This document shows positions 1-15,461 of a stretch of DNA of 37,690 nucleotides, in pieces. The position numbers and the translations under genes were made by a program. Position 1 is the stretch's first letter; every line of letters starts with the position of its first letter. The notes below the pieces were generated by a model, which had not been told where the DNA came from, did no database searches, and worked only from the letters and a program-made list of their open reading frames with translations. Location of the stretch: assembly GCA_016207685.1 (NCBI GenBank), contig JACQPE010000131.1:1-37690 (forward strand), given 5' to 3'. This DNA comes from Elusimicrobiota bacterium. GTDB taxonomy: Bacteria > Elusimicrobiota > Elusimicrobia > JACQPE01.

Positions 1-3000
1 AGCCAGAGCCCTGGGACTCAATGAGGTCACCCCAGAGGTCCTTAAAGCCAATTTCTCCAGAGCCCAGGAAATAGCGGAACAAGAAGCCATTGCCAAGTCA
101 GGATTAAACACGCAGGCCAGGGCAGCCACATCTCTACAGACAACAACACTAAAAGCCCGGACTTATTTGCAGAGAACCTATTTAAGAGTCCAGGCAGTAA
201 CGGCAAGGGTAACAACAGCGATAAGAGCAACGCTCTCCCCGCTCTTGTCATGGCCAACCCCGCTCTTGTCATGGCAAGCCAAGGGCGCAGCAATTTCATC
301 AAAAAACGCCCCTTCAATGAGATTGCCGTGGTCCCTTTGGAACCTCGCCATGACAAAGAAAAAAGATGAGACTGCGCCACCAGACAATGTTATTGGACTC
401 TATGACCATAGGACAGAACAGACAAGAACAGAAAAAGAGCAAACCCAGAATGCTCCCCTCACCCTGCCCTCTCCCCCAAGGGGCGAGGGGCTAGAGGGAC
501 AGGGACGAGGAGGCACAGAAAAGGGGCGAGGGATCGAAGAAGAGGGGAAAGGAATTTACAGGGAAGAGGGGCAAGGGATTGGCAGGGAAAAGGCACGAGG
601 GGAGGATAAAAAAGAAGAAGGGCAAGGGAGAAGGAATGGGAAAGCAGGAGGAACAATAAGAAAGGCGGCGGCAGCCGCAGCAGCGGCTGTTGTCTTAGGC
701 CTTTTGCCCTCATTAGCCCAGGCGGGGACGGTTGCTTCAGTTGGACAGGCGGGAACTTCTTGGGTAGCTCTAGCTTTAATATTTGGAGGGGTGCTTGGCG
801 GAAATGCCGGGCTTTCCAAGGTTGCGAGCGAAGGGATCGAGTCTCCACTGCACGCTTCAGAGGAAAGACCTCAAGATAAAGTGTCAAGTGGAGACTTGTC
901 CCCTTCGCTTATTAACGGTGAAATTCAAAAACTTTTGGAATCCGGGGGAGTCCTTTGGAATCTTGGAGGAAGCAAGGCTATAACCGAAGTGTATGACACT
1001 GGGCATAATTTGCCTTTAATCCTTGAGTATCTGGAGAATTCTCGCCAAGCTGGAAAATTCGTCAATCAAAACATAGGTTGGTTTACCTATAAGTCGGAGT
1101 ATACTGGAAGAGCATTTGCCTACTTTTATCATCGCGGGGCGTTGGTTAATCTCAAGGAAAATGCCAAGGCAATGCAACTCCTTAAACCATTTGGATTTGA
1201 ACCGGAAGATTCGATAGATGATCTTATTGCCAAATTCCAGTCTTTTATAAACAAGCCTTATATTCCTTATGGTCAGCGCAGCGCAGGGGAAGTTTATAGG
1301 GCGCATCTCATTTTCGGTATTTTCATGGGCTATCCTCCCGGTCAGGTTGAGGCTCATGCGCTTCTTGCCAAGATTGAAAAGGAAGGAAAATCACCACCTA
1401 AAGGGTTAATTTCACGCAACATGAAAAGGATTGGCGCAGGCGGGCGTGGAGCTTATGTGTATGAACGGTTTGATGCGCTGGGCTACAAAACTTACAATGC
1501 CAGCGACCGGAAATTTGAAAGACGTCTTCGCATGAAAAATGACGCGATTGTGAGAAAGTATGACCGCTTAAAGGCGATGAATTTGTCTCCGTGGCGCATT
1601 ATCAATGAATGGGATTTCGATTCCGGAGACCTTAATTCCCGATCATGGTTCAGATTTCATTCTGCCGCGGCTGTTTTATTTATGGGTATTTTTATTCAAC
1701 CTTCGATTTCCTTGGCTTCTGTGGGACAACAAGAAATTGATTTAAGCGGCTCACCATTGGTTTTTATCGGAGCGTCACTTTTGGCGTTGACTTGGAAATG
1801 GACGGCTTTAGAAAGAGTGATTAAATGGTTATTCAGACGACGCGGGCCGGCAAAAAGTGTCTCCTCTAAATTATCCGGAGAATTTAGATACCGAGAAGAA
1901 CGTAGCGACAAAATTTATCAGGCTATTGTGCCGACATTGGAGACAGGGGACCTTATTCATGGGACATCATTGGCTATTCTTGAGTTGATTATTCGCGATG
2001 GCCGCATGAAAGAGGGTGGGGCCGATGATGGATACCCACCGGGCATTTGGTTTGAAGAAATTACGCCGAGCAGACTCGCGGCAAAAAACTCTCCCGCTTT
2101 GGAGCCGCTTTTGGCCATAAGATACGCTGAATCAACCGCTCGCATAACTGATTCAAGTCCGGTGATATTGCGTGCCCGGAGCACGCCGGCAAGCCCGTTG
2201 CGATTTGAGGGTGTGCCCGCGACCACGATGCTTAGCCAGGGCGAAGTTCGCATTGAGAACCTTGAGGTATTTTCTCCCGATAATCTAAGTTGGATGCCGC
2301 TGGAGATTTGGGGCAAAAAAAATAATCTTAAAAACAAAAATGTCGAGCTTTCACTTGACACTTTACGAAAGGGGCCGCGGGGCACAGTGTCAAGTGGAGA
2401 CTTGACCCCTTTAATTACACCATGGCGGGCCTGGAGTTTTGAATCTGTTTCTCAGGAGCGTCTCATGTATGAGGCAACTGGAAAAGAAATTCCCTGGTCT
2501 TTAAAGATGCGGATATTTGCGGAGTGGCTGATTCTCACGCCTCTGGCGGCTATTTTCTGTTTGATTCCAGGCATTGGCGGAACCATTGTCCATGAGTACG
2601 GCCACTATGCGGCGGCCTTATTTGCGGGGGCGCCGGTTCGTAATTTTTCCATGACTCTATTGGACCCGCTGCGAGGCGCCAGGGGCGGCGTGACTTATCT
2701 TCCTGTCAATAATCCGTTAGTTAATTTTATTGTGACTATTGCCGGCCCTATGTTCGGCATTGGGAGCAGTTTAATTTTGATTGCGACATCGGTAATGACA
2801 TTGGCAAGCCGGCATGCGTCCATGGGACCACTGGCTTTGCTGGTAATTTTTTATTTAGCAATTTGCGGAATCATAAATTTTAATTTTAATGTTTTAGGAA
2901 GCACGAACGACTACCTTAGCGCCCGGAGCAATTGGCGTCACTGGCGATCACAAACTCAATCCCGTTCTGATTCATGGCGCCAGGTATTGATGGATCCACG

Positions 3001-6000
3001 CGACCAACGTCCGCGGCCCACGGTCGAAGACAGACCGCCGGTAGTTGGTCAAAATCCGCCGCTTAAAGAATTGAAACAAGTTTTAGGCGATGGGGCGTTA
3101 ACGCCAGGCGGGTGGATTGAGCCGTTCGGGTTCCGGCTCAAAGATGGCTCACGCAGGCAAGCGAGGTCGGCGGGATTGGAGGGGTTTCTCTACACCAAGC
3201 TCGAAATCGAACGGGATCCGACCGGCATCGCCCCTGAACAGTTCGATGATTTTTTTCGGTATTTGACGGCGCTTTTGGAGCCTTTTGAATGGGCCAAGGG
3301 ATATCGAATTCGGTTGCAAAAAGTTTGGAGTTCATGGAAGGAATTTAACGAAAAAAATGACCTTCTAAATCGCGAACTCGCCGCAATCATCAGCGAGCTG
3401 CAGAAGGAACTGATTGCCTCTGATCCTTCCCAATGGGTGCGCCAGGCAAATACGTATATGATTTTGGCTCGCGCTTACAATCGTTTAAGACCAGGGAAGA
3501 ACTTTTTTGATTCCCTTGATAATGAGGAGCTCAGGCGCATCAAGGATAATGCGAAGGCGGATGCCATCTGGCTTTTGGATATTTTTGAGATTGGGGATAT
3601 TAACCGCTGGGGCACGGGCGGCGGTTCCCCCTATGCCATCAAAGGGTACCGCGTCAAGAAAGAATTGGGAGGAGAAGCCGGACTCAAGGCGTTTATTGAA
3701 AGGGCGCATAAATTGGGTCTTAAAATCGGCGTTGATCAGATACCGAATCATGTTTCTCTAGACAGCGACCTAATTAAAAATCGGCCCGAAGCGTTGATTC
3801 ATATTGTTCCCCCTCAAGAACTTTCGGATGAACAAATTTTGGCTGCCGTTCCCAAAGAATCGGCCCCAAAAAATCCAAAACCTGTTTTCTATCTGCTTAA
3901 GACCAACAATTATCCCGAAGGCGGCCGCCGAGTGGAAAAAAGAATTTTGGTGCATCACCCCATAACTAATTTCGGCGGCCCGGGCGAAGATATGTGGGTT
4001 GATATGGCGCAGCGCGATCTTACCTCGCCTTTAGCGCGCGAATGGGAAATTACCGATGCCAAGCGGCTTTTTGGCGGATGGGGAGTGGATTTTGTCCGGC
4101 GAGACATGTCTTATGATTTGTTAAACGAGCGGTATCTTCAGCGATGGCTGGCTATTTTATCCCAAGAACGCGATCATTCGGAAGGATGGATGCGCCATGA
4201 GATGGATCAATTAATTGTCGGCCTAGAGCGGCGCGCGGCACAAATGGGGCAAACAGAAATTTTGGAGGAAATGACGAATGCCGTCCGAAAGATTCGTCCG
4301 GATGGCGCTGTCTTGGATGAAGCCTATTCCGAATTGGACGCATTAAGCCGGACCGGTTCAAGCGCCATTTACAACAAATGCGACCATGATCCCGCAAAAG
4401 GCCAAATAGGTTTATATGACGCCCTGGTTAGCCGTGATCCAAAACGGATTCGCGAAGCCTTAAAACACGCTGCGTTTCGGCGTTGGCAGCGCGGCGCCGC
4501 GGCGGCGCTTAATTTTATCGGTAATCATGACGGCGGCGAGGGAAATCCCGTTGATAAATTCGGCCGTTATTTCAAGGCTGCGGCTTTGGCGGTGCTTCTT
4601 TTGCCTCCAATTCTTCTCTACAACGGCGTTGAGTTGGGCGTTGGGCAGAAAGAAATGGTTATCGGCAGCCTTAATTCATCGCGCGACCGCAAAAAAGCCC
4701 TTCCTTTTGATATTCCCATCAAAATTAACTGGACTCACCGCAATGATGATAATAAAAAATTCATTGAACTGGTGCTGGCCCAAAGCCGCCGCTATCGTAA
4801 TCTCCTTAACCGAGGCATCATGGAAGTGCTGCGGCCGGATTCCCAGGACTCTCCTATTGTCGCCTGGAGCGTGAGCCGGGTTTACAGCCCTGTAACGCTG
4901 CTCATGGCAGCCAACTTTACCAATCATCGGGGCAGCGGGGCGTTTGGCATGAGGTCGCCCATTTTTGAGTTTTTGGGGGCATTTAAACCAGAGTCAGGGA
5001 AAAATTACCTTTTTAGAGATTTGGCGAACACGATTGACGGCGCGCCGGTAACCTACCGCCGTTCCGGTCAAGAACTATTGGATCAAGGTCTTTATATCGA
5101 GCTTGATACGGGTGGTATTCATTTCTTTGAAATAACCGAAGATGTTTCCGGCGTTTTATTGGGAGGGCAACATTTTGCAACTTTGGCAATTAGCCCCCGC
5201 CTGCCGACCTTTATTGTTGATTTTTTCAAGGCGTCTTGGGATAAGTGGACGGATGGATTGACAAAACTATCTCTGTTGGCGTTTGCTCCGCTTCAATTGC
5301 CCCAGATTTGGAAAAATTTGCAAAACCTTGTCTCAGGCAATGAGCAAGCCCTTTCGATATTGCCGTGGATGGGTTATTCAACTGGAATATTGGGCAATAT
5401 GTTGCTATTGTCTTTTTTTTCGTCTCAAGGCGAAAAAAGCGCCGCTTTGGTGCAGGCCGTCGGCGTCATAACCAGCGCTTTTGTTGTTATTCAGATATTC
5501 CAGGCTGGATTTATGCCTGAAATTGCATTTTGGTTAATTTTGCCCGTTATTGCCGCTGGACTAGTTATTAATTTATTGAAGATCAAAAATAGGCTCCCTC
5601 AAACGATTTGGAATATCTGGAGCAGGGGTTCGGCCCTGGTGGGTCTAGCTGCGCTGCCTCAAGTTTTTTGGTCCACATTTGCCCCGGGACAAGGAACATC
5701 GTTGTGGCCGGCTTCGGCCGCTTTTATTATGGGATCGATCATGGTCGTGTTGGACCATCGTGATTGGCTGCCCAAACAACTTAAAAATCTATGGATCATG
5801 CTTTCGGCATGGACCGCAACCATGTTATTCATGTTTGGTCCTATCGCCCAACTTTGGAATAATTACAACAACCCAGAGAATATGGAAGGCATCTCTTGGG
5901 TCACCTTGGCTTTGGCCGTTGGCGGCAACATGCTGATGCTGCCGCGCGCCATCTTGACCAAAAATCTTGTGTGGTTTACCGGCAGCGGCTGGGCGGTGGC

Positions 6001-6148
6001 CGTTGGCGGCTGGGCGGTGTTACTAAGCATGTTTCTTTATGGAGTTTTATCCGGAACCATCTTTTGGGGCGCAACGATTTTTATTCCATTGTGGATCGCG
6101 ACGGCCGTTCTATTGGCGCGGCAATTTCCTATTTCTAATGCGAGGTAA
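1..6148 (+). CDS. Giant multidomain membrane protein (5'-partial): M50-like metalloprotease region, GH13/alpha-amylase-like region, C-terminal PQ-loop/SWEET-like membrane region
   Basis: The frame of the 167..6148 ORF (TTG at 167) stays open upstream to base 2, so the real start lies outside the window. Motifs seen: VHEYGHYAAALFAGAPVRN with downstream NVLGSTNDY (M50-like); GVDQIPNHVS, GVDFVRRDMSYDLL, LDEAYSE and IGNHDGGEG, matching GH13 regions I-IV; LPQIWKN...PWMGYSTGILGNMLLL and GPIAQLWNNYNNPENMEGISWVTLALAVGGNMLML, resembling PQ-loop repeats. Stop TAA at 6146-6148. Confidence 0.85.
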   Translation, partial: ARALGLNEVTPEVLKANFSRAQEIAEQEAIAKSGLNTQARAATSLQTTTLKARTYLQRTYLRVQAVTARVTTAIRATLSPLLSWPTPLLSWQAKGAAISSKNAPSMRLPWSLWNLAMTKKKDETAPPDNVIGLYDHRTEQTRTEKEQTQNAPLTLPSPPRGEGLEGQGRGGTEKGRGIEEEGKGIYREEGQGIGREKARGEDKKEEGQGRRNGKAGGTIRKAAAAAAAAVVLGLLPSLAQAGTVASVGQAGTSWVALALIFGGVLGGNAGLSKVASEGIESPLHASEERPQDKVSSGDLSPSLINGEIQKLLESGGVLWNLGGSKAITEVYDTGHNLPLILEYLENSRQAGKFVNQNIGWFTYKSEYTGRAFAYFYHRGALVNLKENAKAMQLLKPFGFEPEDSIDDLIAKFQSFINKPYIPYGQRSAGEVYRAHLIFGIFMGYPPGQVEAHALLAKIEKEGKSPPKGLISRNMKRIGAGGRGAYVYERFDALGYKTYNASDRKFERRLRMKNDAIVRKYDRLKAMNLSPWRIINEWDFDSGDLNSRSWFRFHSAAAVLFMGIFIQPSISLASVGQQEIDLSGSPLVFIGASLLALTWKWTALERVIKWLFRRRGPAKSVSSKLSGEFRYREERSDKIYQAIVPTLETGDLIHGTSLAILELIIRDGRMKEGGADDGYPPGIWFEEITPSRLAAKNSPALEPLLAIRYAESTARITDSSPVILRARSTPASPLRFEGVPATTMLSQGEVRIENLEVFSPDNLSWMPLEIWGKKNNLKNKNVELSLDTLRKGPRGTVSSGDLTPLITPWRAWSFESVSQERLMYEATGKEIPWSLKMRIFAEWLILTPLAAIFCLIPGIGGTIVHEYGHYAAALFAGAPVRNFSMTLLDPLRGARGGVTYLPVNNPLVNFIVTIAGPMFGIGSSLILIATSVMTLASRHASMGPLALLVIFYLAICGIINFNFNVLGSTNDYLSARSNWRHWRSQTQSRSDSWRQVLMDPRDQRPRPTVEDRPPVVGQNPPLKELKQVLGDGALTPGGWIEPFGFRLKDGSRRQARSAGLEGFLYTKLEIERDPTGIAPEQFDDFFRYLTALLEPFEWAKGYRIRLQKVWSSWKEFNEKNDLLNRELAAIISELQKELIASDPSQWVRQANTYMILARAYNRLRPGKNFFDSLDNEELRRIKDNAKADAIWLLDIFEIGDINRWGTGGGSPYAIKGYRVKKELGGEAGLKAFIERAHKLGLKIGVDQIPNHVSLDSDLIKNRPEALIHIVPPQELSDEQILAAVPKESAPKNPKPVFYLLKTNNYPEGGRRVEKRILVHHPITNFGGPGEDMWVDMAQRDLTSPLAREWEITDAKRLFGGWGVDFVRRDMSYDLLNERYLQRWLAILSQERDHSEGWMRHEMDQLIVGLERRAAQMGQTEILEEMTNAVRKIRPDGAVLDEAYSELDALSRTGSSAIYNKCDHDPAKGQIGLYDALVSRDPKRIREALKHAAFRRWQRGAAAALNFIGNHDGGEGNPVDKFGRYFKAAALAVLLLPPILLYNGVELGVGQKEMVIGSLNSSRDRKKALPFDIPIKINWTHRNDDNKKFIELVLAQSRRYRNLLNRGIMEVLRPDSQDSPIVAWSVSRVYSPVTLLMAANFTNHRGSGAFGMRSPIFEFLGAFKPESGKNYLFRDLANTIDGAPVTYRRSGQELLDQGLYIELDTGGIHFFEITEDVSGVLLGGQHFATLAISPRLPTFIVDFFKASWDKWTDGLTKLSLLAFAPLQLPQIWKNLQNLVSGNEQALSILPWMGYSTGILGNMLLLSFFSSQGEKSAALVQAVGVITSAFVVIQIFQAGFMPEIAFWLILPVIAAGLVINLLKIKNRLPQTIWNIWSRGSALVGLAALPQVFWSTFAPGQGTSLWPASAAFIMGSIMVVLDHRDWLPKQLKNLWIMLSAWTATMLFMFGPIAQLWNNYNNPENMEGISWVTLALAVGGNMLMLPRAILTKNLVWFTGSGWAVAVGGWAVLLSMFLYGVLSGTIFWGATIFIPLWIATAVLLARQFPISNAR
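237..275. repeat. Tandem direct repeat CCCCGCTCTTGTCATGGC x2 (21-bp period)
   Basis: ccccgctcttgtcatggc at 237-254 and 258-275. Confidence 0.85.
318..356. repeat. Degenerate dispersed palindromic repeat of the GAGATTGCC...ATGACA type
   Basis: atgagattgccgtggtccctttggaacctcgccatgaca resembles a widespread interspersed palindromic repeat in bacterial genomes; recognised from memory. Confidence 0.5.
452..510. repeat. CCCCTCACCCTGCCCTCTCCCCCAAGGGGCGAGGGG-type palindromic repeat inside the ORF
   Basis: Near-palindrome ccctctcccc/ggggcgaggg; translated as APLTLPSPPRGEG, a familiar repeat-derived peptide. Confidence 0.65.
841..904. repeat. Palindromic repeat copy 1 (VSSGDL-encoding) with upstream inverted half-site
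   Basis: agtgtcaagtggagacttgtcccc (880-903); inverted gtctccact (841-849) versus agtggagac (887-895). Confidence 0.7.
2352..2410. repeat. Palindromic repeat copy 2 (VSSGDL-encoding) with upstream inverted half-site
   Basis: agtgtcaagtggagacttgacccct (2386-2410) contains gtcaagt-ggag-acttgac; inverted cacttgacact at 2352-2362 versus agtgtcaagtg at 2386-2396. Confidence 0.75.
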
Positions 6149-6152
6149 CTTG

Positions 6153-7421
6153 ATGAAAATTTTTATTTTTGGATGTTTGATCTCAATGCTGCTGATGGGA
6201 GGCTCCTGTAAAGAATCAGCGCAGCTGCGGGCTGGCTCCGAAGCCAAAGTCACCATTCGGTATCTGACTGCTCCGGATGTGGGTGGATTTTCCAAGGAAA
6301 TGATCCGGAAATTTGAAAAATTAAATCCTGATATTCATATCGAGATGGTGGAGGGTCCGGCTGCTCCCAATACGAGAGAAGACATGTATTCGGCTTCGTT
6401 TATGGCCAAAGAGGACACTTATGATTTACTTTATATGGATATTGCCTGGCTTCCCAAATTCGCGGCTCAAGGATGGCTGCGGCCGCTGGATGATAGGTTT
6501 AGCAAAGAAAGTCAAGCTGAATTTTTGAGCGGCGACATCGAAGGCTCGAAATACCAGGGAAAAATTTACAGGTTGCCGACCCAGTCCGATGGCGGGATGC
6601 TCTATTACCGCAAAGACCTTTTAAAGGCCAACGGACTCAACCCCCCGGAAACGTGGAATGACCTGGCGACCGCTGCCAAAAAACTCCAATCCCCCCCTCA
6701 AATCTGGGGGTTTGTTTTTCAGGGCAAACAATATGAGGGTTTGGTTTGTGATTATTTAGAGCTGGCTTGGGGCAATCAAACAACTTTGATGGATGGTGAG
6801 GGCAATGTCCATCTTGACAGTCCCCAAGCGGCGCAAGCGCTTGGGTGGCTTGTTGACGCCGTGCACAAGGATAAAATCGCGCCACCCGGAGTTTTGACTT
6901 ATCAGGAGGAAGAGGCGCGCCATATGTTTCAAGAAGGCAAGGCTGTTTTTATGCGCAATTGGCCGTATGCTTGGAATTTACTTCAAAACGATCAGTCTCC
7001 TGTTAAAGGCAAGGTGGGCATCATGCCGATGGTGCATGGAAACGGCGGAATCAGCGCCGCGACTTTGGGCGGCTGGGGATATGGGATTTCATCCTTCTCC
7101 AAAAATCCGGAGGCTGCTTGGAAATTTATCGAGTTTGCCGCCTCATCAGAAAATCAAAAGCTTTCTTATTTTAAGAGCGGCATTTTGCCGACTAGAAAGG
7201 CGCTCTTTCACGATGCCGAAATCGTCAAAGCGAGTCCACACATGAAAGAATTGGGTCAAGTTTTAAGCCATGCCAAAGCGCGTCCGGCGCACCCTTTGTA
7301 CGCGCGTATTTCAGATAGCCTTCAAATGCATCTTAGCGCCGCTTTAAGCCTCCAGGAGAAACCGGAGGCGGCTTTGGCTGCCGCCGCCAAAGAGATTCGT
7401 TTGATATTAACTTCAAAATGA
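6153..7421 (+). CDS. Sugar ABC transporter extracellular solute-binding lipoprotein
   Basis: MKIFIFGCLISMLLMGGSC lipoprotein-like signal; body typical of family 1 solute-binding proteins (MIRKFEKLNPDIHIEMVEG, GGMLYYRKDLLKANGLNPPETW, AWKFIEFAAS). Start chosen at ATG 6153, preceded by GAGG. Confidence 0.92.
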   Translation: MKIFIFGCLISMLLMGGSCKESAQLRAGSEAKVTIRYLTAPDVGGFSKEMIRKFEKLNPDIHIEMVEGPAAPNTREDMYSASFMAKEDTYDLLYMDIAWLPKFAAQGWLRPLDDRFSKESQAEFLSGDIEGSKYQGKIYRLPTQSDGGMLYYRKDLLKANGLNPPETWNDLATAAKKLQSPPQIWGFVFQGKQYEGLVCDYLELAWGNQTTLMDGEGNVHLDSPQAAQALGWLVDAVHKDKIAPPGVLTYQEEEARHMFQEGKAVFMRNWPYAWNLLQNDQSPVKGKVGIMPMVHGNGGISAATLGGWGYGISSFSKNPEAAWKFIEFAASSENQKLSYFKSGILPTRKALFHDAEIVKASPHMKELGQVLSHAKARPAHPLYARISDSLQMHLSAALSLQEKPEAALAAAAKEIRLILTSK

Positions 7422-8248
7422 CCGCTCGGCGAAGCTACTGGCTCAATTGGGTGTACGCCCTGCCCGCACTCATCATGATCGCCGTGGTTAATGTTGTTCC
7501 CATGGGACAAACATTTTGGTGGAGCAGCGGTTTTGGAAGGTTGTCCTCCGATAGCCGGTTGTGGGGCGTTTTGAGAAATACAACGATGTTTACTTTTTTT
7601 GCGGTCAGCGCGGAGTTGGTTTTAGGTTTGGCCATAGCGCTATTGCTGGCGCAAAAATTTTACGGCCGCGGTTTCGTGCGCGCGGCGGTGCTCATTCCCT
7701 GGGCCTTGCCGACAGCCGTTATGGCCATGGCTTGGAGATGGATTTTTAACGCGGACTACGGCGTTTTAGGGGATATTTTTTATAAATTTCATTTATCCAG
7801 CTCGCCCAACATTCCTTGGCTGGCATCGCCGGGTCTGGCCTTTTTTTCATGCGTTTTGGCTGATGTTTGGAAAACCACGCCGTTTATGGCCATATTGCTC
7901 ATGAGCGGTTTGGCCGCTATTCCATCTGAACTCTATGAGGCCGCCTTAATGGACGGCGCCGGGACATGGCGGCGGTTCTGGATGATTACTTTTCCCATGC
8001 TCAAGCCCACGATCGCTGTGGCTGTTATTTTCCGCGCGATTCAGACCTTTGGAATTTTTGACTTGATTTGGGTCCTGACCGGCGGCGGTCCCGGTGGCAA
8101 AACTCAAACAATCGCCCTTTATGTTTATGACGTTGTTTTTCGCTATCAGGAACTTGGTTATGGCTGCACATTGACTTTGGTCATGGCCACGGCCCTGATT
8201 TCTTTTTCTACGATTTTTATGCTGTTGTTGCGTCCTAAATCTTCATGA
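7418..8248 (+). CDS. Sugar ABC transporter permease (MalF/UgpA type)
   Basis: EAA loop EAALMDGAGTWRRFWMITFPMLKP; multiple TM segments; ATGA overlap with the upstream gene. Confidence 0.92.
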   Translation: MTARRSYWLNWVYALPALIMIAVVNVVPMGQTFWWSSGFGRLSSDSRLWGVLRNTTMFTFFAVSAELVLGLAIALLLAQKFYGRGFVRAAVLIPWALPTAVMAMAWRWIFNADYGVLGDIFYKFHLSSSPNIPWLASPGLAFFSCVLADVWKTTPFMAILLMSGLAAIPSELYEAALMDGAGTWRRFWMITFPMLKPTIAVAVIFRAIQTFGIFDLIWVLTGGGPGGKTQTIALYVYDVVFRYQELGYGCTLTLVMATALISFSTIFMLLLRPKSS

Positions 8249-9090
8249 GTCAAAAACAGCGGAAACAATCATCTAAATTTTTATTTTTTGGCGCCGTGGC
8301 CTTGGTTTGTTTCTGGAGCCTGGCCCCCTTTTTGTGGCAAGTTTTGACATCATTAAAATCGAGCGAGGAGGTCATTGCCTCGCCGCCTGTGTACTGGCCA
8401 TCGCGCTTGACCATCGTGAGTTACTTCAAAATTTTTTCAGCCAGGCCTTTTTCGGTTTATATTTGGAACAGCTTAATCGTGGCTTTTGGGACGACATTTT
8501 TATGCACCGGAGTCGCCGCTCTCGCAGCTTACGCTTTTTCCAGACTTAAGCTTCCCGGCGGCAAGGCAGTGTCAAATGCCATTTTGCTCGTTTCTCTATT
8601 TCCGCCAACGCTGCTTGTTGTCGCCTTAAAGCAACTGATTCAGACGGCCGGACTTTTGAATAATCCCTTGTCGCTTATTTTAACCTACGCCGCGCTTAAC
8701 CTGCCTTTTGCCATCTGGGTCTTGGCGAATTTTTTTAAACAAGTCCCCATGGACATTGAGGAGGCGGCCCAAGTGGACGGCCTGGGTCGTTGGTCGGTGC
8801 TCTGGAAGATCGTCGCTCCCTTGTCCGCGCCGGCGATCGCAACAACGGCTATTTTAGTCTTTATTTTTTCCTGGAACGAGTTTTTGCTGGCGTTAACCTT
8901 TATGTCGAAAGATGCGGCGCGGACAGTGCCGGTTGGAATCGCCATGCTTTCAGGTGTGACGATTTATGAAATTCCCTGGGATCAAATTTCAGCCGCCGTC
9001 GTCATCACAACGTTGCCCGTAGTGGCCATGGTTTTGGCCTTTCAGAGACGCATTATCGAGGGTTTAACGGCGGGAGCCGTCAAAGGATAA
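8245..9090 (+). CDS. Sugar ABC transporter permease (MalG/UgpE type)
   Basis: EAA loop EEAAQVDGLGRWSVLWKIVAPLSAPA; multiple TM segments; ATGA overlap with the upstream gene. Confidence 0.92.
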   Translation: MSQKQRKQSSKFLFFGAVALVCFWSLAPFLWQVLTSLKSSEEVIASPPVYWPSRLTIVSYFKIFSARPFSVYIWNSLIVAFGTTFLCTGVAALAAYAFSRLKLPGGKAVSNAILLVSLFPPTLLVVALKQLIQTAGLLNNPLSLILTYAALNLPFAIWVLANFFKQVPMDIEEAAQVDGLGRWSVLWKIVAPLSAPAIATTAILVFIFSWNEFLLALTFMSKDAARTVPVGIAMLSGVTIYEIPWDQISAAVVITTLPVVAMVLAFQRRIIEGLTAGAVKG

Positions 9091-9092
9091 TT

Positions 9093-10109
9093 ATGGCTCA
9101 CGTTGAGATCAAAAATATCAATAAGGCTTTTGAAACCGGGAAATCAATTTTAAGCGCCGTCTCATTTACTATTAATGACGGAGAATTTGTCTCTCTTCTT
9201 GGGGCTTCAGGGTGCGGAAAAACCACGATCCTGAGAATTATCGCTGGACTCGAGACGGCGGATTCAGGCAGCGTCTTAATTGACGGCCAAGATGTGGGCG
9301 CTGCTTCACCCAAAGATCGCGACATCGCCATGGTCTTCCAAAACTATGCGCTTTATCCGCATTTGAATGTCCGGGAAAATATTAGCATGGGTCTGACTTT
9401 ACGAAAAATTGCCCGGCCTGAAATCAGCCGGCGCGTTCAGGAAACAGCGGCTTTACTGGGAATTGAGGAATATCTGGACCGACGGCCCTCGGCCTTGAGC
9501 GGCGGCCAACGGCAACGCGTGGCTCTGGCACGCGCCCTTGTGCGGCGGCCCAAGGTTTTCCTGTTGGATGAACCCTTAAGCAATCTTGACGCGCTTTTAC
9601 GCGATAAAACGCGGTCCGAGCTCAAACTTTTGTTTGAAAGAGTTAAAGGAACGGTGATCTATGTGACGCATGATCAGGTCGAAGCCATGACCATGTCAAG
9701 CCGGATTATTGTTCTCAACAAAGGCCGGATTGAGCAAATCGGCGCGCCGCAGGAAATTTATTCCAAACCTAGAACAGCCTTTGTGGCGTCATTTTTAGGC
9801 ACACCATCCATGAATTTGTTTGATGTTTCCAAGGCAATTCAATGCGGATTGCTTTCCCAGACGGCATTTGGTTCGAAGTCGGCGCTAATGGCCGGAATTA
9901 GGCCCGAAGAAATTTTAGTATCGCAGCGCCGGCAAGACGGCTTTGTTGAAGTTGAAATTTTAGTGGCCGAGCCGACCGGGGCCTTGACAATTTTGACACT
10001 CAAGACCGGCGTTGACCTGCGCGCCGTAGTCAAAGGCTCTTTTAACAACGCGCGCCAAAAAATTTGGATTTCTCTTCCTGACCAACACCTTCACTTTTTC
10101 CCCAATTGA
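9093..10109 (+). CDS. Sugar ABC transporter ATP-binding protein (MalK/UgpC-like)
   Basis: Walker A GASGCGKT; signature LSGGQRQRVALARAL; Walker B VFLLDEPLSNLD; C-terminal TOBE-like tail. Confidence 0.95.
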   Translation: MAHVEIKNINKAFETGKSILSAVSFTINDGEFVSLLGASGCGKTTILRIIAGLETADSGSVLIDGQDVGAASPKDRDIAMVFQNYALYPHLNVRENISMGLTLRKIARPEISRRVQETAALLGIEEYLDRRPSALSGGQRQRVALARALVRRPKVFLLDEPLSNLDALLRDKTRSELKLLFERVKGTVIYVTHDQVEAMTMSSRIIVLNKGRIEQIGAPQEIYSKPRTAFVASFLGTPSMNLFDVSKAIQCGLLSQTAFGSKSALMAGIRPEEILVSQRRQDGFVEVEILVAEPTGALTILTLKTGVDLRAVVKGSFNNARQKIWISLPDQHLHFFPN

Positions 10110-13728: not shown

Positions 13729-14574
13729 ATGCTGGCCATGCCGGAGCATTGCTGCGTCTGCGATGAACCCCGATGGCAGCCCTATTGGCGGGGACTGCGC
13801 CGATGTCCGCGTTGCACTTTTGTCTGGGCGATAACGGAGGAAAATTACGATCAGGCTCAGGACATTTATCATGATCCGGGGTATTTTTTCGGTGGCGAAT
13901 ACTTAGACTACGTTAAAGAGCGTCCCTATTTGGCAAAGGGTTTTCGTTTACGTTTGGATATGCTGCGCCGTTTTGCGTCATCGGGACTTCTCTTTGAAGT
14001 GGGCAGCGCCTTTGGTTTTTTTCTTGAGGGGGCCAAAAAAAATTTTACGGTTTCAGGAATCGACATCAACGCCGAGGCCTGCGCCTATGCGCGTTCAAAT
14101 TTTAATTTGAATGTTATTACCGGTGATTTATTAAAAATTGATTTGCCGGAGAATCACTTTGACGTCATCGTCAGTTGGGCGACCCTAGAACATTTAACGC
14201 AGCCCCATCTCTACGTTAAAAAAATCAGCCAACTGGTAAAAAGAGGCGGCATCTTCGCCTGCAGCACGGGTGATATCAACTCCCCTCTGCCGCTAATGCA
14301 GAAAGGCAATTGGCGGTTGATTCACCCGCCGACTCACCTGTCCTATTTTTCAAGGCGGAGTCTCGCCGAGCTCATGAATCGGTGCGGCTTTAAACCTGTT
14401 TATTCCAAATGGATCGGTGAACATCGCTCACTTGACGGCATGCTGCACTCTTATTTCGTTACGCTCAAAAAAAAGCCCTCGATCTATGAATGGTTCAAGC
14501 GAAAGGGGCTCAACAAAGGAGGATTTTATTTAAACACATGGGATACAATTTTCATGATCGGACGCCGTGTTTAG
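13729..14574 (+). CDS. Class I SAM-dependent methyltransferase with N-terminal zinc-ribbon-like CxxC pairs
   Basis: CCVCDEPRWQPYWRGLRRCPRC; LLFEVGSAFGFFLEGAKK; DVIVSWATLEHLTQP; VKRGGIFACSTGD. Confidence 0.85.
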   Translation: MLAMPEHCCVCDEPRWQPYWRGLRRCPRCTFVWAITEENYDQAQDIYHDPGYFFGGEYLDYVKERPYLAKGFRLRLDMLRRFASSGLLFEVGSAFGFFLEGAKKNFTVSGIDINAEACAYARSNFNLNVITGDLLKIDLPENHFDVIVSWATLEHLTQPHLYVKKISQLVKRGGIFACSTGDINSPLPLMQKGNWRLIHPPTHLSYFSRRSLAELMNRCGFKPVYSKWIGEHRSLDGMLHSYFVTLKKKPSIYEWFKRKGLNKGGFYLNTWDTIFMIGRRV

Positions 14575-14588
14575 GGTTAGATCAACCC

Positions 14589-15461
14589 ATGAACGCCGGA
14601 TCGAAATTTCTGATCGTCAACGCGGATGATTTTGGCCTTACGGAGTCCGTTTGCGATGGTATTCTGGAATCTTACCGCCGAGGCATTGTAACCAGCACCA
14701 GTATGCTTTCCACGGGACGCGCTTTTGCGTACGGCGCCGATTATCTAATAAAAAATCCCGGATTGGCGGCCGGTATTCATTTGTGTCTCGACGAAGAACG
14801 GCCGGCGCGGCCCGATCTGTGGCCGGCAAAATTTCTAACGAAAGAAGGTTTTTTTGAACATCGGTCGCTAATGTTTACGTGGTGTCTTTTGGGGATCATT
14901 TCACCCGGCCTTGTTTATGAAGAATGGAAGGCGCAAATAGCTCGCTGCCTGGAAGCCGGCGTCCATTTGGATCACCTGGATGGCCACGGCCATGTTCACC
15001 TGATCCCTTCATTGGCGCCTGTGGCCGTCAAATTGGCCAAAGAATTCAAAATTTTGAACGTGCGCTTTCCTCAAATTGGAGGGCTGGGATGGCTGTTCCG
15101 CCAGGGTTTTCTCAAAACAGCGAGGGTATCGGCTATCGCGGCCCTCGGCTTGCTCTCGCGGCGCCATTTTAAAGGTGAGCGTTCCGGCAGGCCTTACAAT
15201 TTTCATGGACTGGCTCAGGGCGGGAGGCTGGACCCAAAAGCACTAAATCTTATTCTGGAGGCATTGCCTCAAGGGATTAACGAATTAATGTGTCATCCCG
15301 GCCTATGGAATGAAAAACAGATGAATCGTTACCTGTATTGGGACTATCACTGGCAAGCTGAATTGGACGCCCTGACACAATCACATTTACGTGAAAAATT
15401 GAAAAAAGAAGGGATCACCTTAGCAAGGTTTGGAGATTTGCCGTCAAAAAATTCCGGCTAA
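14589..15461 (+). CDS. ChbG/YdjC/HpnK-like carbohydrate deacetylase
   Basis: LIVNADDFGLTESVCDGILESYRRGIVTSTSML; GIHLCLDEERPA; HLDHLDGHGHVHLIPSL; ELMCHPG. Start ATG 14589. Confidence 0.9.
   Translation: MNAGSKFLIVNADDFGLTESVCDGILESYRRGIVTSTSMLSTGRAFAYGADYLIKNPGLAAGIHLCLDEERPARPDLWPAKFLTKEGFFEHRSLMFTWCLLGIISPGLVYEEWKAQIARCLEAGVHLDHLDGHGHVHLIPSLAPVAVKLAKEFKILNVRFPQIGGLGWLFRQGFLKTARVSAIAALGLLSRRHFKGERSGRPYNFHGLAQGGRLDPKALNLILEALPQGINELMCHPGLWNEKQMNRYLYWDYHWQAELDALTQSHLREKLKKEGITLARFGDLPSKNSG

Follow-up and report, generated by a model that had tools for sequence, protein, structure and literature searches.

A GH13 and membrane-domain module ahead of a sugar importer in a probable giant fused protein of Elusimicrobiota

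Introduction

Which parts of a long fused protein form a working unit, and what might that unit do? The question is raised by the beginning of a 37,690-bp stretch of DNA (the window) that represents contig C97, from base 1, of a draft genome from the phylum Elusimicrobiota with a size of 2.37 Mb and a completeness of 90%. An initial annotation described one polypeptide here that joins an M50-type intramembrane protease region, a GH13-like amylase and a PQ-loop/SWEET-like membrane tail, with a sugar ABC importer directly behind it. As a whole, this observation is confirmed for the frame, the domains and the position of the importer. Elusimicrobiota are reported to be enriched in huge proteins (PMC11573180), and giant genes are reported to be common in Elusimicrobia, with membrane helices and carbohydrate-degradation domains noted for such proteins (PMC12057145). 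The combination of an M50-like segment, GH13 and a membrane tail was not found in the literature searched.

Results

A single open reading frame on the plus strand, which carries all features described below, spans positions 2 to 6148 and comprises 2048 codons without a stop before the stop codon at 6146-6148. The frame is open right from the first bases of the contig and the gene is thus truncated at its 5' end; the uninterrupted frame stood up, whereas position 1910 as the start of the gene did not. The visible 2048 aa appear to be the C-terminal portion of something larger: the first 36 residues share 58% identity with a 4903-aa frame in a genome of the same family, G003. In this comparison residues 1-37 (2-112) match the end of a region read as DEAD/SecA-like: the match site lies just after that region, for which Pfam DEAD gives merely E=0.061. 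Two more frames, 5022 and 6078 aa long, also contain the DEAD/SecA-like region; the loci with these frames of 4903-6078 aa are L052 (G003) and L105 (G002), both from same-family genomes. Further on, the 4903-aa frame carries a GH15 domain and a weak sigma-70 region 2. Measured against a length of >5000 aa for giant proteins, 2048 aa are visible here with the start missing, and frames of the same family that share its first residues or this region reach 4903-6078 aa.

Codon statistics prefer the frame from about nt 900 onward. The coding signal is low at nt 1-900, 2341-2520 and 2881-3060, the latter two coinciding with both module junctions. The first 900 bases combine little coding signal with dispersed repeats. 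Residues 24-110 (71-331) have a second copy with 96% DNA identity on contig C104, and both contigs begin inside this duplicated stretch. On C104 (L025) these residues belong to a 2215-aa frame that is open at both ends and has no Pfam match. A dispersed repeat at 449-490, read in frame as PSPPRGEG, has copies on contigs C138, C101 and C202. Two copies of a palindromic element (883-903 and 2389-2409) are identical in 20 of 21 bases, lie 1506 bp (502 codons) apart and are both read in frame; no further copies with up to 3 mismatches occur in the draft genome. We rejected the twofold SSGDL(S/T)P as a polyprotein linker since it is this palindromic DNA element read in frame, and likewise the look-alike LGDGALTP, which belongs to a conserved motif in the N-terminal region of GH13. 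An ADP-ribosyltransferase-like domain spotted by eye at residues 650-800 was discarded as unsupported, and a Pfam match to DUF3793 in the N-terminal half stayed below the cut-off.

Residues 1021-1713 (3062-5140) comprise a GH13 domain with a conserved N-terminal region. The domain scores above the Pfam cut-off and matches PDB entry 3dhu with E=3e-16, the sequence match to solved GH13 structures spanning just about 120 residues. Its AF2 model has pLDDT values mostly between 80 and 94 and a TM-score of 0.77 to 4gkl. The predicted catalytic nucleophile Asp1368 (4103-4105), acid/base Glu1440 (4319-4321) and transition-state stabiliser Asp1510 (4529-4531) are retained in all 26 aligned sequences. 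Membership in GH13 is well supported by the modeled barrel fold and the catalytic Asp/Glu/Asp, in agreement with the amylase and the candidate catalytic residues first annotated. Close homologues of the frame come from Elusimicrobia, plus one from Polyangium. The latter, in Polyangium sp. 6x1 (Myxococcota; L087:9953-12091), is a tail-less GH13 with 47% identity and a possible case of gene transfer. Plasmid records yielded just ordinary GH13 matches with partial coverage. A tree of the GH13 clade gave the window sequence no well-supported sister and did not show a single origin of the tail or of the S8 protease fusions described below.

The membrane tail (residues 1713-2048; 5138-6145) has about ten predicted helices, with moderate support for PQ-loop-like repeats. 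In an hhalign comparison the PQ motif at its beginning and the one at its end form an internal repeat (P=3.7e-4); a third repeat in the middle of the tail is not supported. Pfam PQ-loop matches appear in relatives only, below the cut-off (E 0.0085-0.046). A fold search returned AtSWEET13 with the best TM-score, but at E=3.8 and with a model of mean pLDDT 63, and no sequence match was found in the PDB. If all ten helices span the membrane, Lys and Arg residues sit on loops that would face the cytosol only with the start of the tail inside, a pattern that is hard to reconcile with an exported GH13 and with the SWEET orientation (N-terminus outside, PQ loops in the cytosol). These features suggest the annotated PQ-loop/SWEET-like identity but do not establish it.

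We compared the frame with 147 relatives and then with 341 Elusimicrobiota genomes. The strong matches start, with few exceptions, at residues 977-1023; the others are cut contigs or divergent copies. GH13 and tail form one frame in eight other genomes (G004, where it is cut, G024, G029, G037, G067, G077, G112 and G124). Identity is 47-52%; seven of these genomes have frames of 1053-1270 aa, and that of G124 is 1461 aa long. In G040 and G063 a separate gene directly after GH13 encodes the tail, and the module is split over two overlapping frames in G122. In G001, from the same family as the window, a related GH13 is followed by tail matches in swapped order (L043). This swapped-order gene also contains embedded stretches resembling dispersed repeats. 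Judged by these alignments, GH13 plus tail is a conserved module in Elusimicrobia.

The importer begins 4 bp past the stop of the fusion frame with the ATG of a CUT1 lipoprotein solute-binding protein (SBP; 6153-7421, lipobox-like LMGGSC), followed by a MalF-like permease (7418-8248), a GlcU/MalG-like permease (8245-9090) and a UgpC/MalK-like ATPase (9093-10109). Pfam confirms the order first described, and one row of genes contains the SBP, two permeases and MalK/UgpC-type ATPase of a CUT1 importer; no NCBIfam equivalog cut-off was reached. Farther downstream, a YdjC-like gene lies at 14490-15461. Orthologous sets (56-76% identity) are located directly 3' of the module in G124 and G063, which belong to two other families. 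G079 has this importer as well, there behind a GH77+GDE_C (glycogen-debranching) protein. An SBP with at least 58% identity occurs in 11 genomes, including that of the window. In the other seven of these the GH13 module was not seen with the importer; the module precedes the SBP in only three of the 11, which shows that the two are not always paired. At several module loci no CUT1 importer is seen nearby. Elsewhere, members of the GH13 family have two GH15 genes (G029), a GH13 gene (G033) or a GH77+GDE_C gene (G018) as neighbors, and further CUT1 sets are located close to family members in G037, G040, G081 and G091.

Upstream of GH13, an M50-like segment (2513-2914) begins with a hydrophobic stretch (residues 838-856) that adjoins HEYGH (residues 864-868; 2591-2605) and ends with NDY (residues 969-971; 2906-2914) in a region gapped relative to the two nearest relatives. 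An Arg-rich stretch follows. Both annotated motifs are in place. Pfam M50 stays just below its gathering cut-off of 27.2 bits, with 24.8-26.0 bits (E=1.6e-5 over the full frame and 6.7e-6 when the segment is searched by itself), and AF2, given the window's own sequence alone, did not resolve the segment (pLDDT mostly <50). A three-sequence profile found RseP as its best PDB match (E=0.067). Its nearest relatives (G124 and G024) are genes of their own on different contigs and share <30% identity over the aligned segment. The neighborhood search proposed for further M50+GH13+PQ-loop fusions turned up no second M50-GH13 fusion among 341 Elusimicrobiota genomes. With the fusion limited to one genome, it does not represent a general machine.

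A different protease precedes related GH13 domains. In nine loci (L032, L035, L038, L039, L041, L044, L045, L046 and L047) an S8 subtilase and HEAT repeats lie ahead of GH13 in frames of 1473-2618 aa, the S8 match in L041 being just below the cut-off and L039 being 5'-open. Fusion of a protease to this GH13 is thus recurrent. In L045-L047, which are outside the 26 aligned sequences, the match skips at least residues 1257-1444, the site of the catalytic Asp and Glu, and GH13 therefore looks degenerate there.

Discussion

The domains, the module that recurs in relatives, its retained catalytic residues and the gene order are direct observations, and on them we base the reading we consider reasonably probable: the locus encodes a module for the processing and uptake of alpha-glucans, which was incorporated into a giant fused protein. 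The working unit would be GH13 joined to a multi-helix membrane domain, encoded directly ahead of a CUT1 importer. At the inner membrane, GH13 would most likely act on oligosaccharides of the alpha-glucan type, with the importer drawing sugars from the same pool. In the window this unit would form the C-terminal part of a larger fusion behind the M50-like segment, which would fit the giant proteins of Elusimicrobiota. We infer the substrate, the cooperation with the importer and the membrane side from this context, and the same applies to any activity or relevance of the M50-like segment. Since GH13, tail and importer recur together in relatives, glycan processing and uptake at the membrane, as initially proposed, is supported. 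The accompanying idea that the protease releases or regulates the hydrolase is not, because the M50 fusion is confined to this genome and the chain in relatives carries either no protease or one of the S8 family.

On which side of the membrane GH13 acts is where a rival reading fares best, although we regard it as rather unlikely. GH13 could be a cytosolic enzyme of glycogen or maltodextrin remodelling at the inner face that acts after import, with the tail as an anchor only. The charges of the tail agree with this reading, as do the Arg-rich stretch after the M50-like segment and the Polyangium homologue, which has no obvious signal peptide. However, most Elusimicrobia relatives have a start that by eye resembles a signal peptide, and the stand-alone tail genes in G040 and G063 carry such a stretch as well.

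It is less probable still that the M50-like segment and the GH13-tail part are unrelated genes, joined by a chimeric assembly or by a recent chance fusion. Such an origin would match a fusion found in one of 341 genomes, a contig that begins inside a repeat shared with C104, the weak coding signal at nt 2881-3060 and M50 relatives that are separate genes elsewhere. On the other hand, 2048 codons pass without a stop or a change of frame, codon statistics prefer the same frame on both sides of the junction, and this GH13 is commonly fused to other partners in long frames. A bolder version of the preferred reading, in which GH13 and the PQ-loop-like domain process alpha-glucans and move the sugar in one chain while unrelated proteases (M50, S8) were repeatedly recruited as control, appears quite improbable to us. 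We give least credit to an active intramembrane M50 protease that frees or controls the GH13-tail part: HEYGH beside a hydrophobic segment, a later Asp and the nine S8 fusions of another protease family speak for it, but the Pfam score and AF2 confidence are low, and the module works without an M50 part in relatives.

The preferred reading, a processing and uptake module within a larger protein, defines a conserved GH13 and membrane-domain module for Elusimicrobiota, and gene order links it to sugar import. The M50 fusion is confined to one genome. That proteases of unrelated families have repeatedly been fused to this type of GH13 offers a lead on the role of the giant proteins of the phylum.

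Compared to known systems, the GH13 domain shares barrel fold, motifs and catalytic Asp/Glu/Asp with alpha-amylases such as 4gkl (AmyB of Thermotoga neapolitana) and 3dhu, but differs from solved GH13 enzymes by about 125 extra conserved N-terminal residues and by the C-terminal membrane domain. The tail resembles PQ-loop/SWEET sugar transporters in its PQ-like motifs within an internal repeat and in its best fold match, whereas its helix number, the missing PDB sequence match and a charge pattern opposite to the expected orientation set it apart. With site-2 proteases of the M50 family such as RseP the upstream segment has HExxH at a hydrophobic stretch in common; unlike them it is short, has no PDZ match, carries NDY in place of an LDG-type motif and remains below the Pfam cut-off. 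The importer has the composition of maltose-type CUT1 systems (MalEFGK), with a lipoprotein SBP, two permeases and a UgpC/MalK-like ATPase, but reaches no equivalog cut-off that would assign its substrate. Finally, giant proteins described from Elusimicrobiota and Omnitrophota (PMC11573180, PMC12057145) have the phylum, the many domains, the membrane helices and the carbohydrate-active parts in common with the frame as a whole.
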